Positions 5,965 to 48,530 of a stretch of DNA of 54,361 nt are shown here, piece by piece (the first letter of the stretch is position 1; every line of letters starts with the position of its first letter). This stretch comes from a virus. The stretch is from the IMG/VR virus record IMGVR_UViG_3300022074_000053, positions 1 to 54,361 of that record; one strand, given 5' to 3'. Both the position numbers and the translations under genes were made by a program. A model generated the notes under the pieces. That model saw only the letters and a list, made by a program, of their open reading frames with translations. It was not told where the DNA came from and did not search any database.

Positions 5965-5987
5965 CCTCAGACACCCTCCGTCTGAGG
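5965..5987 (-). promoter_or_regulatory. hairpin in the psbA leader
   Basis: CCTCAGAC and GTCTGAGG form a perfect 8 bp stem with a 7-base loop in the 5' untranslated region of psbA, 50 bases before the ATG. There is no T run after it, so it is not an intrinsic terminator. It may stabilise the mRNA or mark an RNase E processing site; that role is inference. Confidence 0.5.
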
Positions 5988-6068
5988 TATTAGAGACGTG
6001 ATTTAGACTCCCTATAGGTCTCGGTTTGAGGAGAGTTGCGTTACATTTCGTAACCTTCAACACTATGT

Positions 6069-6097
6069 ATAATAGTTCGGTTCCCCGTATTTGTCAA
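6069..6097 (-). promoter_or_regulatory. strong sigma-70-type promoter of psbA
   Basis: Minus-strand TTGACA (6092-6097), 17 bp spacer and TATTAT (6069-6074), directly after the glgP stop. The consensus -35 and ideal spacing suggest strong recognition by host RNA polymerase. The leader to the psbA ATG is about 150 bases. Confidence 0.82.
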
Positions 6098-6110
6098 CAA
6101 GTATTTTTAC

Positions 6111-8501
6111 TCATACTTTCCAGATGGTATCACAGTAATCCTGAATTGAACGGTCTGATGAGAAGAAACCAGATTTAGCGATATTAATAAGAGACTTTCG
6201 ATTCCATTCCTCACGGTTACCCCAGGTTGTGTCTACAACACTCTGAGCGCGACAATAATCACTAAAGTCAGCACATACACAGAAAGGATCTTTCTCTATA
6301 AGATTGGACATTAAATCAGTGAATGAATTCTTTTCGCCATTTGAGAAATGACCTGATTTAATTAATTGAATCGCTTCAAATAAACAACCACTCATATGAT
6401 ACTGAGGATCGTATCCATCTTTCCACAGTTGCTGTATTTCTTCTTCAGTCTTACCGAATAGGAAGAAATTTTCTTCACCGACGAGTTCTCTAATCTCAAC
6501 ATTAGCACCATCTAATGTTCCAATAGTTAAAGCGCCGTTCATCTGAAACTTCATGTTTCCAGTACCAGATGCTTCCTTACCTGCGGTAGAAATCTGTTCG
6601 GATAAATCAGCAGCAGGATAAACCTTCTCCCCCAACTTAACACTATAGTTTGGTAAGAATACAATTCTCAACTTACCATTCATATCAGGATCTGAATTGA
6701 TGGTTTCAGCAACGTTACAAATAAATCTAATGATTTCTTTCGCCATATAATATCCAGGTGCTGCCTTACCACCAAAGATTACTGTCCTAGGTACAACGTA
6801 ATCGTCTTTATGATTTTTGATATACACATACCTAGAAACCACCCATAAAGCAAGGAGATGCTGTCGTTTGTATTCGTGAATTCTCTTCACCTGAACGTCA
6901 AACATGCTTGATGGATCAACGGAAACACCAAGAGTCTTCTGTATGTATTGTGCTAGTTTATGCTTACCAATCAGTTTTGTAGCGCCAATCTTTTCAAGTA
7001 ACATGGAATCATCAACATAATTTTCCAAGTTACCCAAAAGACTCATATTAGAAACCCAATCAGTCCCCACATATTCATTAAGGACCTCAGCAAGTGCTGG
7101 ATTAGAATCTGCCAACCAACGACGTGGTGTTACACCATTAGTTACATTTGTAAACTTATGAGGCCAAAGATCATAGAACTCTGGCATCAAATTTTTGGTA
7201 ATAAGATCAGAATGAAGCGCAGCAACACCATTCACATGATGAGAACCAACTGTCGCAAGATGCGCCATTCTCACAGACTTGTTACCAGCTTCATCTATGA
7301 TTGACAATTTACGAAGAACTTGATCGTCACCAGGATACTTCATCCGTACAACTTGCAGGAATCGTGAATTGATTTCATAAATGATTTCAAGATGTCTTGG
7401 CAACAAACTCTCAAATAACTTGAGACTCCATTTCTCCAGTGCCTCTGGAAGCAGTGTATGGTTTGTATATGCGATAGACTTACTTGTAATATCCCATGCC
7501 AGATCCCAATCCATATGATGATCGTCAACTAGCAATCTCATCAATTCAGCAACAGCGATTGATGGGTGAGTGTCATTCAGTTGAACTTGATAATGTTCAT
7601 AGAACTCTTCAATAGGTAAGTTTCTTTCCTTGAGATTTCTAATCATATCCTGAAGAGAAGCACTTACAAAGAAGAACTGTTGTTTCAAACGAAGTTCTTT
7701 ACCTTGATCTGTTTCATCGTTAGGGTAAAGAATCTTAGAAATCGTTTCAGATCTTACACTATTCTCTACAGAACCAATATAATCACCGATATTAAAAGCG
7801 TAAAAATCGAATACATCTATTGCATCTGCTCTCCAGAGTCTAATTTTAGCGCAACTATCGACCTTATATCCTGCCTGAAGAACGTCGTAAGGAACAGCAA
7901 CCACATACTTGTCTGGAACCCAACGCACTCTAGAATCATATTCAGATAGTTCATAGTGCTCTACCTTACCACCAAATCCAACCATAACAGATTCATCAGG
8001 ATAACAAAGTTCCCATGGCCAATCCCCATGTAACCAATTATCAGTAACTTCTACCTGTTGATTGTCGCGGATTGTTTGTTTAAAAATACCATACTTATAT
8101 CTAATACCATATCCAGTGGCAGGAACTCTAAGTGTTGCCATGGATTCCATATAACAAGCAGCGAGTCTACCTAAACCACCATTACCTAGTCCAGGTTCTT
8201 CTGATTGCTCAAGAATCTCATCTAAGGTATATCCAAATTTAGAAACCGCATCCTCTGCTTCTTTGCGAATATCTAAATTAAGAAGATTGTTGCTTAATTG
8301 CGGACCAATCAAAAATTCTGCTGATAGATATGCGATTTCTTTCCGATGAGATTTTTCTACCAGATGATTATCCATCATCTTATCTCTCACTGCGTAACAC
8401 AATGCCGTATATACATCATGAGCTGTGGTATTATGAGAACTCTTTCCCAAAGTATAATGGAGACGTTCTTTCAATCTGTCACTAATTTCGTTTTGTACCA
8501 T
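6111..8501 (-). CDS. glgP: glycogen phosphorylase
   Basis: A 796-residue GT35 alpha-glucan phosphorylase. It releases glucose-1-phosphate from glycogen ends using phosphate and PLP. GLGNGGLGRLAACYMESMAT near 105-125, the substrate loop QLNDTHPSIA and GTGNMKFQMNGALTIGTLDG with the PLP lysine at about K651 are intact, and the length matches bacterial homologues. Two starts are possible: 8516, with AAGGG just upstream but inside a terminator hairpin, or 8501, just after it; I prefer 8501. It lies directly upstream of psbA and has its own promoter. With zwf and gnd in the same genome it would feed host glycogen into the pentose phosphate pathway. Unusual in phages. Confidence 0.97.
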   Translation of the reverse strand: MVQNEISDRLKERLHYTLGKSSHNTTAHDVYTALCYAVRDKMMDNHLVEKSHRKEIAYLSAEFLIGPQLSNNLLNLDIRKEAEDAVSKFGYTLDEILEQSEEPGLGNGGLGRLAACYMESMATLRVPATGYGIRYKYGIFKQTIRDNQQVEVTDNWLHGDWPWELCYPDESVMVGFGGKVEHYELSEYDSRVRWVPDKYVVAVPYDVLQAGYKVDSCAKIRLWRADAIDVFDFYAFNIGDYIGSVENSVRSETISKILYPNDETDQGKELRLKQQFFFVSASLQDMIRNLKERNLPIEEFYEHYQVQLNDTHPSIAVAELMRLLVDDHHMDWDLAWDITSKSIAYTNHTLLPEALEKWSLKLFESLLPRHLEIIYEINSRFLQVVRMKYPGDDQVLRKLSIIDEAGNKSVRMAHLATVGSHHVNGVAALHSDLITKNLMPEFYDLWPHKFTNVTNGVTPRRWLADSNPALAEVLNEYVGTDWVSNMSLLGNLENYVDDSMLLEKIGATKLIGKHKLAQYIQKTLGVSVDPSSMFDVQVKRIHEYKRQHLLALWVVSRYVYIKNHKDDYVVPRTVIFGGKAAPGYYMAKEIIRFICNVAETINSDPDMNGKLRIVFLPNYSVKLGEKVYPAADLSEQISTAGKEASGTGNMKFQMNGALTIGTLDGANVEIRELVGEENFFLFGKTEEEIQQLWKDGYDPQYHMSGCLFEAIQLIKSGHFSNGEKNSFTDLMSNLIEKDPFCVCADFSDYCRAQSVVDTTWGNREEWNRKSLINIAKSGFFSSDRSIQDYCDTIWKV

Positions 8502-37735: not shown

Positions 37736-39154
37736 CTATTTCTTTTTTGGTTTTTTTCTAAGTCTCGATAGAACTTTATCTGCCAAAGAAGTTCCGGCAG
37801 TATATCCAGCGACTCCTCCACCAATCGTTCCAACAGGTCCAGCAAAACTACCAAGACTAGATCCTACAGCACCACCTAACCACCCAGCAGCGGTTCTAAA
37901 ACCAGATTTGAGACCAGCTTTAAGTCTACTATCTCCAGATGCTCTATTTTTTCTATAATCTAAGAAAGTATCAAGACCAGCACCAACAGCACCTAAACCT
38001 TTAGCAGCTTTACCTGCGTACTTACCAAGATTTCTTTCAACTGCTTTATCAATAGTCTTTTGTGTTACAGGTGTAGGTTTTCCTTTAAGGAGATTTTTTT
38101 CTGGTGTAATATCTTTTACTTTAACTGGTTCAACATCAATAACAGAGTTTTTAGGATTTACTAAACTCTTAAAATTCTTTTTAGATAATGCCTTTTGAGA
38201 GGATGTAGTTTTTCCTACTGATAATCCCCCAACACTTTTAATAAATGATTTATTTCCTCTAGCGAGAGTAACTTCAGATCCTGGTTTGGGTTTATTTTTG
38301 AAAGAGTATCCAGATCTATTAGATTTTTTTACATCATTGCCTACAAGATTTTTAATTACTTTATCAAGATCAGCACCTCTTGTTTTAGAAATATCTCTTG
38401 TAGCATCCGCTTGAGCACGAAATCTTGTGCGTTGACCTTTCGTAGATGACCTCCCAACCATCTCTGGTTTAGCACCAGATGCTTTGAGACCCTGTGCATC
38501 TACAAAATCTTGAGTTACCTTGCGACCTTGATCCTGCATACTACGGATGTACTCATTAGCAGGAGTCTGCGGTACAGTTTTAACTGGGGTGCCTGGAAAG
38601 GGATCTGGTATAGAAGGTTTCCCAGATTTCGCTCGCTTAGTGACATTTTTAAATGGTCTAGCAGGTGCCGGAATCTTCGACTTAAATGGATCAGGAATAC
38701 CTTGCTTTACAGTTCTCTTCTGCCTTACAGAACGATCAACATTGGGGTTTGATTCATCTGCTTTCAGACCACCAGACTTAGAACCCGAGAATCCTCTTCT
38801 TGCTGCTATATCAGACTTTACTCTGGCAGTAGCACCACTCCTATCTCCAGGGAACGACAAGGTACCTCTAGCAAGACTTCCAGTGGTTTTGCCACCAGTT
38901 GCTCCTTTTACCCTCTGAGCGCTTCTAAACTTCGCTGCCTGCTTGGAAACATCTGCCTGCTTCACTGCCGTTGTCTTGGGCGTTTTAGGTGCCTCAGGGT
39001 TTGCTACCTTAGGAGGATTAGAAGGATCTGAAAACTTCTTATCAATTTTTTTCCGATTACTTAGATCCAATGGATCTCTATCTCCTGGAGCAGGGGATGC
39101 TACAGCAGTATTACCTTTTTTTCTTTCTAGTATAAAATTACTAAACGACTTCAT
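37736..39154 (-). CDS. internal virion protein with capsid-targeting N terminus
   Basis: A 472-residue basic protein starting MKSFSNFILERKKG. The first ten residues match the T4 capsid-targeting sequence (MKTYQEFIAE) of internal proteins, and ILE fits the gp21 protease cleavage rule (I/L-x-E). The rest is very basic and low in order (FRSAQRVKGATGGKTTGSLA), with a Gly-rich end like GGVAGYTAGTSLADKVLSRL. It probably is packaged with DNA in the head and injected. ATG 39154 is chosen. A late promoter lies upstream. Confidence 0.8.
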   Translation of the reverse strand: MKSFSNFILERKKGNTAVASPAPGDRDPLDLSNRKKIDKKFSDPSNPPKVANPEAPKTPKTTAVKQADVSKQAAKFRSAQRVKGATGGKTTGSLARGTLSFPGDRSGATARVKSDIAARRGFSGSKSGGLKADESNPNVDRSVRQKRTVKQGIPDPFKSKIPAPARPFKNVTKRAKSGKPSIPDPFPGTPVKTVPQTPANEYIRSMQDQGRKVTQDFVDAQGLKASGAKPEMVGRSSTKGQRTRFRAQADATRDISKTRGADLDKVIKNLVGNDVKKSNRSGYSFKNKPKPGSEVTLARGNKSFIKSVGGLSVGKTTSSQKALSKKNFKSLVNPKNSVIDVEPVKVKDITPEKNLLKGKPTPVTQKTIDKAVERNLGKYAGKAAKGLGAVGAGLDTFLDYRKNRASGDSRLKAGLKSGFRTAAGWLGGAVGSSLGSFAGPVGTIGGGVAGYTAGTSLADKVLSRLRKKPKKK

Positions 39155-39180: not shown

Positions 39181-39188
39181 TATTTATA
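39181..39188 (-). promoter_or_regulatory. late promoter
   Basis: TATAAATA, fused to the end of a terminator T run, 27 bases before ATG 39154. Confidence 0.7.
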
Positions 39189-44971: not shown

Positions 44972-45475
44972 TCAATCTGCGTATTGTGAATCATCGCCAG
45001 CATCACCAGTTATACTGCTTCCAGCAACAAGTGTTTCTGTCTTAATTCTAGCCACACCGTGCATATCGGTGTAGGACTTTACAGCAACCCATCCAGCGTG
45101 AGATGGAGCATACTTACGTGCAGTTCCAGAGGCAGCATTTGCAACTGCTTGCTCATTAGTATCTACTCCGAAAATCTCTTCACCATCGTAGTTAGAGTCT
45201 TCGTTTACATAAACTGGTTGCTCAGAGATGTTGTAAGTAACGCCACTGATAGCGGTTCCGTCAAGACCAGTTGTATTATGAAGAACAGCAGTGGTATTAC
45301 CAGTGCGCTCCTTAATAACTGCACTTCCTTTTCCTGTAATAGTAACGACTGCACCCTCAATAGCGGAAGCAGCAGGAAGAGTAGCACCACCACCGAAAGT
45401 TGCAACCTTAGTTGTAAGGTTGACACTAACAGTACCAGTCGAATATAAAGAGTCTGATGTGCCCCAAAGAGACAT
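44972..45475 (-). CDS. virion structural-like protein
   Basis: A 167-residue protein MSLWGTSDSLYSTGTVSVNL, low charge and Thr/Ala/Gly-rich, with beta strands (VVTITGKGSAVIKERTGNTT) and HAGWVAVKSYTDMHGVARIK. Late promoter TATAAATA 31 bases before the ATG and GGAAAC before the start. Probably a capsid or tail decoration protein. Confidence 0.78.
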   Translation of the reverse strand: MSLWGTSDSLYSTGTVSVNLTTKVATFGGGATLPAASAIEGAVVTITGKGSAVIKERTGNTTAVLHNTTGLDGTAISGVTYNISEQPVYVNEDSNYDGEEIFGVDTNEQAVANAASGTARKYAPSHAGWVAVKSYTDMHGVARIKTETLVAGSSITGDAGDDSQYAD

Positions 45476-45505: not shown

Positions 45506-45513
45506 TATTTATA
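45506..45513 (-). promoter_or_regulatory. late promoter
   Basis: TATAAATA, 31 bases before ATG 45475. Typical T4-like core. Confidence 0.68.
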
Positions 45514-47058: not shown

Positions 47059-48321
47059 CTATTTTCTTATCTTATATTTATTTATGAATTGTCTTCCGCT
47101 AGACATTCCAGGAACCATGGTCTCAACGTACTTCCTATGAGCATCAGTTCCAATTAATCTTTGACTAGCAGGAACTCCAGAAATAGTAGTTCCATTTACC
47201 ACTGCCTCAGTGACATCTCTAATCCATGCTTTAAACATAATCTTATCTTCAGTAACACAAATAAGATGATTAGCACCTCTACGGACAATACGACCAACTA
47301 AACCAGTATTGAGATTTTCAACCAATTCACCTAAACGGAAAATTGCCTTACTAACATAATTTTCTCTTAGAGTATCTTGATCAAACTTGGGTGCCATTTC
47401 CCAGATACCCCATTCCTCATTGATACCCATTGACATTCTTGTAGTATCAAAAAGTTGCTTTGCTTCTCTACGTGGAAAACCTTCAGGCATAGCAGACATG
47501 AAAGTTTTGAAATCATTTTCAGAAGCAGCAAGTCTCAATCTTGATGCTGACATTCCTTCCACGCCATCAGCGTCAGGATCCCTATCACCAGCAGAAACAA
47601 CCTCAACATTGTCGAACTGATATAGAGAACCATTATAGTTGTTAGCAAGTTTATCAAACTCCTTTACTCTATCGGCACCACCAACAATTCTTACGTTAGC
47701 ATATCCATCATTATGTGCTTTCTTTAAAATATCAAAAATAGTTCTAGTATTTTGATCATTTTGAATCCTTGAACTATGTTGAGGGAACATTCCTCTCATG
47801 AACGCTACCTTAGTATCAGCATCTAAAGGATTCTTCTTAGGATCATTTGAACGTGAAGGAACAATTACATAATCACTTTCTTCTGCTTCGGCAGCGGCAG
47901 CAGCAGTATCCATTAATTGTTGATGACCAACATGTGGTGGATTGAATCTACCAAAAGCAATAGTCAAAGTTCCTCTTGTCTTAGGAACTGGTGGTGGTCC
48001 TGCTTCTAAGTCGGGACTGATATTTACTGTCTGTTGCTGAGGTTCAGGTACTGCTGTTTGTTGTGCTTGAGGTTCCTGTTGTTGTAGAGCAGGGTCTGTG
48101 AAATTAGGATCAGAAACGTTCTTTTCTAATTCCGTTTGATTGGGATCATCTTGCCCAACTTTCTGTCTCTTATTATAAAACTTTAATCTGCCTTTTTCAG
48201 TCTTAGCGACAAATTCTCCTGTAGAACGATCATACCATCCACCATGCCCATCACCTTGAAGACCAAGACGTGCTGCTTGTTGTGCTGCGGATTCGCTTAA
48301 AAATTTAAAAAAGGATTTCAT
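47059..48321 (-). CDS. cytidylyltransferase/NMNAT-like enzyme with capsid-targeting N terminus
   Basis: A 420-residue protein. MKSFFKFLSESAAQQAARLG matches the T4 capsid-targeting sequence with cleavage after LSE. After a linker, TLTIAFGRFNPPHVGHQQLM (about 110-130) is the HxGH nucleotidyltransferase motif and EGMSASRLRLAASEND is the ISxT-like site. It therefore looks like an enzyme of the nicotinamide/nucleotide adenylyltransferase superfamily packaged in the head. Substrate unknown. The C-terminal 140 residues (FRLGELVENLNTGLVGRIVR) form a separate domain. Confidence 0.82.
   Translation of the reverse strand: MKSFFKFLSESAAQQAARLGLQGDGHGGWYDRSTGEFVAKTEKGRLKFYNKRQKVGQDDPNQTELEKNVSDPNFTDPALQQQEPQAQQTAVPEPQQQTVNISPDLEAGPPPVPKTRGTLTIAFGRFNPPHVGHQQLMDTAAAAAEAEESDYVIVPSRSNDPKKNPLDADTKVAFMRGMFPQHSSRIQNDQNTRTIFDILKKAHNDGYANVRIVGGADRVKEFDKLANNYNGSLYQFDNVEVVSAGDRDPDADGVEGMSASRLRLAASENDFKTFMSAMPEGFPRREAKQLFDTTRMSMGINEEWGIWEMAPKFDQDTLRENYVSKAIFRLGELVENLNTGLVGRIVRRGANHLICVTEDKIMFKAWIRDVTEAVVNGTTISGVPASQRLIGTDAHRKYVETMVPGMSSGRQFINKYKIRK
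47075..47085 (-). promoter_or_regulatory. putative late promoter
   Basis: Two overlapping ATAAATA cores on the minus strand at the end of the upstream gene, about 40 bases before ATG 47040. Confidence 0.45.
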
Positions 48322-48530
48322 TATTTGTTTCTACGTAGTTCTAAAGTAATCTTTCCACGATTGGTAACGATATACTTTAAAATATCATTTCTTATTTTTA
48401 TATATTTATTCTTCTCAGTGCCTTTGGTTACATCTATCTCCTTTTGAAATGTCAAGTAGATATATCTAGCAAACTGTTCATAGTTTGTTCCATCATAATC
48501 TTTAATAAGTTTACTAATATATTCAGACAT
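48321..48530 (-). CDS. small helical protein
   Basis: A 69-residue protein MSEYISKLIKDYDGTNYEQF to LELRRNK. ATG 48530 is preferred; the stop shares a base with the next gene. Basic C terminus. It may be a chaperone or adaptor for the packaged enzyme (context only). Confidence 0.65.
   Translation of the reverse strand: MSEYISKLIKDYDGTNYEQFARYIYLTFQKEIDVTKGTEKNKYIKIRNDILKYIVTNRGKITLELRRNK
48403..48409 (-). promoter_or_regulatory. possible late promoter for the packaged enzyme
   Basis: ATAAATA within the upstream gene, about 82 bases before ATG 48321. In AT-rich coding sequence this may be chance. Confidence 0.3.

Follow-up and report, generated by a model that had tools for sequence, protein, structure and literature searches.

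What is a nucleotidyltransferase gene that begins with an apparent head-packaging signal doing in a T4-like cyanophage? The gene lies in a 54-kb fragment of an uncultivated phage of this type (from IMG/VR). This fragment is the whole stretch of DNA that we analyzed, and we will call it the window. An earlier note on the sequence had described an open reading frame on the minus strand and proposed that its product is an HxGH-type enzyme that is packaged in the head. The reading frame is exactly as it was described, with an ATG start and 420 amino acids (Table 1). We will call the protein NTase. The gene lies between mazG/gp41 and gp61 and adjoins replication genes.

NTase belongs to the family T4-GC190, or PHROG 395 (E=7.7e-100 in a profile search), and it was matched by 529 phage records. 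The usual annotation for the family is "cytitidyltransferase". The closest named relative is PSSM2_194 from P-SSM2, which is about 69% identical over the full length. Compared to PSSM2_194 and to ORF91 of S-SCSM1 (full-length homology of 69% and 47%, respectively), NTase is the same gene at the same genome position, with the same tag and the same motifs; the differences from members of the family are at the sequence level only.

Between the tag and the catalytic domain, NTase has a conserved DGHGGWYD module, which the earlier note overlooked, and a variable linker. That note did recognize a separate C-terminal domain, and we agree: this domain has its own gene in the cyanophage S-CAM1, and it is small and beta-rich in the predicted model. 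In S-CAM1 (positions 5983-6818 of our record L085), NTase is divided over two overlapping genes, and the C-terminal piece opens with a tag-like sequence, MKDFKKLRE. Relatives of this piece (PHROG 4808) are labeled as subunits of ribonucleotide reductase, probably wrongly.

Table 1. Features of the NTase locus and of other genes in the window. Residue numbers refer to NTase.
Feature	Position	Strand	Remarks
NTase coding sequence, 420 aa, ATG start	47059..48321	-	HxGH-type nucleotidyltransferase, T4-GC190 / PHROG 395 family
Residues 1-10, MKSFFKFLSE, T4-type capsid-targeting sequence	48292..48321	-	Predicted gp21-type cleavage after E10
Residues 11-56, DGHGGWYD module	48154..48291	-	Conserved in family alignment; recurs in the S-CRM01 kinase and in S-CRM01 g128
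Residues 57-115, Gln/Pro-rich variable linker	47977..48153	-	pLDDT low over much of the linker (about 33-63, model)
Residues 116-301, alpha/beta nucleotidyltransferase domain	47419..47976	-	Pfam, predicted model, structural matches
GRFNPPHVGH, motif 1 (HxGH)	47923..47952	-	In 302/302 relatives; invariant columns
KKNP, candidate acceptor-phosphate-binding motif	47827..47838	-	K162, K163, P165 invariant; near KKPM of E. coli CoaD in alignment
SASRLR, motif 2 (SxSxxR)	47533..47550	-	In 302/302 relatives; S258, S260, R263 invariant
Residues 305-378 (about), small beta-rich C-terminal domain	47188..47409	-	Strands 333-372 in model; PHROG 4808; stand-alone gene in S-CAM1
ATAAATA, late-promoter-like, upstream of NTase	48403..48409	-	70/70 group-A relatives vs 9.6 expected (counts not independent)
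Two overlapping ATAAATA, in the final NTase codons, upstream of the next gene	47075..47085	-	63/63 in group A, 48/48 in group B (counts not independent)
Downstream gene, 422 aa	45772..47040	-	PSSM2_195 homolog; shares merely a short segment with virion protein S-SCSM1_92
ATAAATA upstream of the virion-protein homolog	45506-45512	-	
Cassette gene (virion-protein homolog)	44972..45475	-	Homolog of S-SCSM1_95 (virion protein), weakly of S-SZBM1_136 (virion structural); TATAAATA 30 nt upstream
ATAAATA upstream of the second tagged gene	39181-39187	-	
Second tagged protein, MKSFSNFILE, 472 aa, pI 10.7	37736..39154	-	TATAAATA 26 nt upstream

In the capsid-targeting sequences of T4, residues 4 and 7 determine targeting and residues 8 and 10 determine processing; the protease gp21 cleaves after L/I-x-E (PMC9026906). 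The propeptide of T4 IpII (MKTYQEFIAE, annotated as -10 to -1 and matched to the T4 record) has the same design as the start of NTase, where MKSFFKFLSE is followed by SAAQQ. As in IPII and IPIII, the NTase tag has ten residues: positions 4 and 7 are aromatic, position 8 is L or I, and position 10 is E. All four key positions conform to the T4 rules, which supports the capsid-targeting sequence that the earlier note had recognized. The tag is also conserved. In our first family alignment, F4 was found in 81/81 sequences, F7 in 79/81, and E10 in 78/82. Among relatives from IMG/VR, the tag is present in 79/79, 80/80, and 74/74 members of the groups that we call A, B, and D (233/233 together), down to about 40% identity. 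Group C (the Melnitz group) has a shortened form (MKKFSEIIEA or MKSFKDIREA). In some relatives, the tag is shorter, changed, or on another polypeptide: the NTase of S-CAM9 lacks it, and S-CAM1 has the arrangement described above.

Could a tag like this arise by chance? We scanned all six frames of the window for the pattern M-x(1,2)-F-x2-[FYLI]-[LIFV]-x-E and found three matches, two of which open long minus-strand genes: NTase and a basic protein of 472 amino acids that starts at 39154. The chance expectation is 0.02 among the 63 long ORFs of the window, and in 60 shuffled windows, no match opened a frame of at least 100 amino acids. With a strict scan, tagged genes were rare in related genomes as well, and NTase was always among them: S-SCSM1 and S-SSM5 have one each, P-SSM2 has two, and S-CRM01 has five, of which one looks like a chance match. 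Given the conservation in the family, the rarity of tagged genes, and the shuffle test, we reject a chance origin. The sole tagged ORF of P-SSM2 besides NTase in the strict scan has 86 amino acids, begins MKSFKQFLEEA, and lies at position 100269 (L372:269). As for the protease, Peptidase_S77 (the gp21 family) is present in 13/13 of the larger T4-like records tested, and the 54-kb window does not span the gp21 region.

The late promoter of T4-like cyanophages (cyanomyoviruses) is NATAAATA (PMC2984593). Late-promoter-like ATAAATA motifs lie upstream of NTase and of three other genes in the window (Table 1); the counts among relatives in the table are not independent, because relatives have common ancestry and coding sequence. 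Over the whole window, ATAAATA is not enriched (14 matches versus 17 expected). Groups B and C have no such motif upstream of NTase and group D seldom has one, and here another gene, encoding DUF6267, often precedes NTase. Toward the 3' end of the NTase gene, the motifs at 47075-47085 lie within the codons for FINKYK; this conserved peptide may be kept for reasons of DNA rather than protein.

Homologs of NTase have been seen in virions repeatedly, in phages other than this one. In 2010, T4-GC190 was listed both among the core genes of cyanophages and as a virion protein (PMC3037559). In later studies, ORF91 of S-SCSM1 ("NMNAT") was detected in virions (PMC9602691), as were, from few peptides, S-SZBM1_140 (2 peptides; PMC9146016) and ORF154 of S-CREM2 (3 peptides; PMC10665884). 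Mass spectrometry of virions was the method for all four homologs, and a virion NMNAT is also cited for S-CBWM1. Packaging in the virion, as proposed in the earlier note, is thus well supported for the NTase family. Because the tag is T4-like and close relatives are found in purified particles, NTase is probably injected with the phage DNA. The gene neighborhood is similar in character: ORFs 89, 90, 92, 93, 95, and 97 of S-SCSM1 are annotated as virion proteins, and S-SZBM1_139 and S-SZBM1_136 were likewise reported from virions (PMC9146016). The block from mazG/gp41 to gp61 is therefore a cassette that is rich in virion proteins.

Alternatively, NTase could serve metabolism in the cytoplasm as an ordinary auxiliary enzyme (an NMNAT, a PPAT, or a glycerol-phosphate cytidylyltransferase), being produced during infection and co-purifying with virions. 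The usual annotation and the adjacent replication genes would fit with this, and the authors of two of the virion studies allow for carry-over from the lysate (PMC9602691, PMC10665884). Against it stand the conserved capsid tag, which other proteins of the cassette share, the late-promoter motifs upstream of the gene throughout group A, and the repeated detection in virions of independent phages. We consider this explanation improbable.

The same tag might mark other cargo, since it also opens proteins that are not homologous to NTase. In the Melnitz group, these are DUF6267 and a protein of 361 amino acids; in S-CRM01, it is a protein kinase of 821 amino acids (L087:2657-5122). The DGHG module of NTase occurs in this tagged kinase as well, and again in a 183-aa protein encoded nearby (L087:5378-5929). 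Kinases of this type are reported from cyanophage virions (PMC10665884). In the window, the basic 472-aa protein had no match in a search of PHROGs, and it is a candidate internal head protein.

What would NTase do once it is inside the host? The HxGH nucleotidyltransferase domain that the earlier note recognized is clear: residues 121-223 match CTP_transf_like (PF01467) in Pfam with E=1.9e-7, which is over the cut-off. Each of the 302 relatives (302/302) has an intact motif 1, in its family form GRFNPP(H/T)xGH, and an intact SxSxxR; D217, R218, and R247 are also invariant. In the AlphaFold2 model, this domain has block-mean pLDDT values of about 77-93. The top match of the model in Foldseek is NadD (E=1.4e-6), and with VIA-align, the fold resembles PPAT (Z 14.2, 2.7 A over 152 residues), NadD (Z 12.8), and NadM (Z 12.4).

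These invariant residues bear on another explanation, in which NTase is a structural core protein for head assembly or DNA condensation, as with T4 IPIII, and the nucleotidyltransferase domain is secondary or inactive. The capsid-targeted proteins of T4 do include IPIII, which has an effect on head morphogenesis (PMC9026906), and NTase is encoded within the cassette of virion proteins. However, even relatives with about 40% identity keep every catalytic residue unchanged, which a purely structural role would not need. We think that a structural role is quite unlikely, and we return to NTase as an enzyme carried in the head.

Given the intact motifs, the matches to the fold, and the ranking of profiles, NTase likely transfers an adenylyl group to a phosphomonoester acceptor. 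The top rows of the profile and structure searches are adenylyltransferases, but these are the best rows only and say nothing against enzymes that use CTP. Identifying the acceptor is more difficult. Among the NCBIfam equivalogs, NadR was best (24.2 bits, with a cut-off of 341), followed by NadD (20.6 of 240), and all were far under their cut-offs, including NadM-type (15.3 of 127) and CoaD (17 of 103.3). Searching the PDB with the single sequence gave no matches, and a profile search gave only marginal matches, to NadR/NMNAT. When we compared NadR, NadD, RibF, and CoaD from E. coli to the family profile, NadR was on top (86%), chiefly via the stretch around HxGH, so we did not use this result to settle the substrate. 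We found no NAPRTase (PF04095) or NadV-type partner in the window or in nine larger related records, which makes a NadV-plus-NMNAT pathway unlikely in these sequences.

The earlier note had suggested an NMNAT-like enzyme, and this is no more than indicated: sequence profiles lean towards NadR and NadD, while structure favors PPAT, all equivalog scores are far below the cut-offs, and no partner enzyme was found in the records just listed. NTase shares its fold and the HxGH and SxxxxR motifs with NadD, NadR, and NadM, which are its nearest neighbors by sequence profile, but it has motifs specific to its family (SRSxDxKKNPL and SAGxRDPDA) and added modules at both ends. Similarly, CoaD (phosphopantetheine adenylyltransferase, PPAT) is the top structural match and its KKPMF lies near KKNPL in the profile alignment, but CoaD lacks the additional modules. 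We lean towards NMN or nicotinate mononucleotide as the acceptor, and only lean; a phosphopantetheine-like molecule or the end of a nucleic acid is also possible. The earlier note also raised AMPylation of host proteins. Nothing points to such an activity, and we set it aside.

A nucleic acid as the acceptor is of interest because of DUF6267, a Pfam family that we noticed in L086, L179-L258, and complete genomes. This protein is encoded in 13/13 of the larger T4-like records with NTase that were tested, and it is directly upstream of NTase at 75 loci of group B, 66 of group D, and 23 of group C. Also, PHROG 455 is a fused profile, with DUF6267 at 22-342 and NTase at 417-715. We rejected the idea that DUF6267 is an unrelated neighbor because it recurs at a distant site in genomes of the P-SSM2 type. 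In 44 DUF6267 sequences, the motifs KWDGAP, EGxV, and K are invariant, with K48-W-D-G, E361-G-x-V364, and K373 as the invariant residues. On our reading of the sequences, K48, EGxV, and K373 would correspond to ligase motifs I, IV, and V. VIA-align with a DUF6267 model gave the Naegleria RNA ligase 6vt1 (Z 7.1, 4.2 A over 180) and T4 Rnl2 (Z 6.0), and the best 18 rows were all ligases, with Z under 8 throughout; RNA and DNA ligases dominate the structural rows. Both the motifs (KxDG, EGxV, K) and these structural rows point to DUF6267 being a member of the RNA ligase superfamily, but DUF6267 has a long helical insertion that sets it apart, and its model had no significant matches in Foldseek.

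These findings raise the possibility that NTase and DUF6267 act together on RNA (by repair, capping, or NAD-linked ligation) instead of on the NAD pool of the cell. The association of the two genes, the invariant ligase-like motifs, the RNA ligases at the top of the structural rows, and the head tag on DUF6267 in the Melnitz group are consistent with this. But the structural scores are low, DUF6267 is about 100 kb from NTase in the P-SSM2 type, and there is no copy in the window. Also, the annotation of S-SCSM1 does not count DUF6267 among the virion proteins, and S-SZBM1_141 does not appear in the text of the S-SZBM1 virion study. We view this alternative as tentative and, overall, rather unlikely. 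A more specific version would be an injected two-part system, in which a capsid-targeted adenylyltransferase and an RNA-ligase-like DUF6267, which are neighbors or fused in many genomes and both carry a head tag in the Melnitz group, would jointly act on RNA ends or on NAD-linked substrates at the start of infection, for instance to undo RNA- or NAD-cleaving defenses of the host before phage genes are expressed. This is speculative, and we consider it unlikely.

We favor the explanation that NTase is an internal head protein of the T4 type that carries an enzyme, and we think that this is probably correct. The gene, a tag kept across the family, undamaged motifs, the fold, and homologs detected in virions are established by our analysis or by published work, and we infer cleavage, injection, catalysis, and the acceptor. 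NTase would be expressed late in infection and would enter the scaffolding core by means of its ten-residue N-terminal sequence. The gp21-type prohead protease of the phage would clip it after Glu10, and it would stay in the head and then pass into the cyanobacterium along with the DNA. There, the central domain would transfer a nucleoside monophosphate onto an acceptor that bears a phosphate. The monophosphate would most likely be AMP, taken from ATP, and for the acceptor we lean towards NMN or nicotinate mononucleotide. Unlike IPI, IPII, IPIII, and Alt of T4, the cargo is an HxGH nucleotidyltransferase rather than an IP fold or an ADP-ribosyltransferase, and cleavage and injection are predicted.

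A packaged NTase is not new. Virion detection was published for other members of the family, and a role mediated by NAD was proposed in 2022-2023, as speculation (PMC9602691, PMC10665884); our protein is one more member of a published family. What we add is the packaging signal, the T4-type late-promoter motifs, a kinase that bears this tag too, and DUF6267 as a partner. The available text of the published work on T4-GC190 / PHROG 395 mentions neither a capsid-targeting sequence nor late promoters.

The marine viruses that have NTase as a core gene are very abundant, and the names that databases give it (cytidyltransferase or NMNAT) are unproven. A clear capsid tag turns the repeated proteomic detections into a testable mechanism, in which an enzyme would be delivered before phage transcription. 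The tag may also be a guide to further head cargo in T4-like marine phages, such as the kinase, DUF6267, and the basic 472-aa protein. Finally, the putative RNA-ligase-like partner is a new functional lead beyond NAD.
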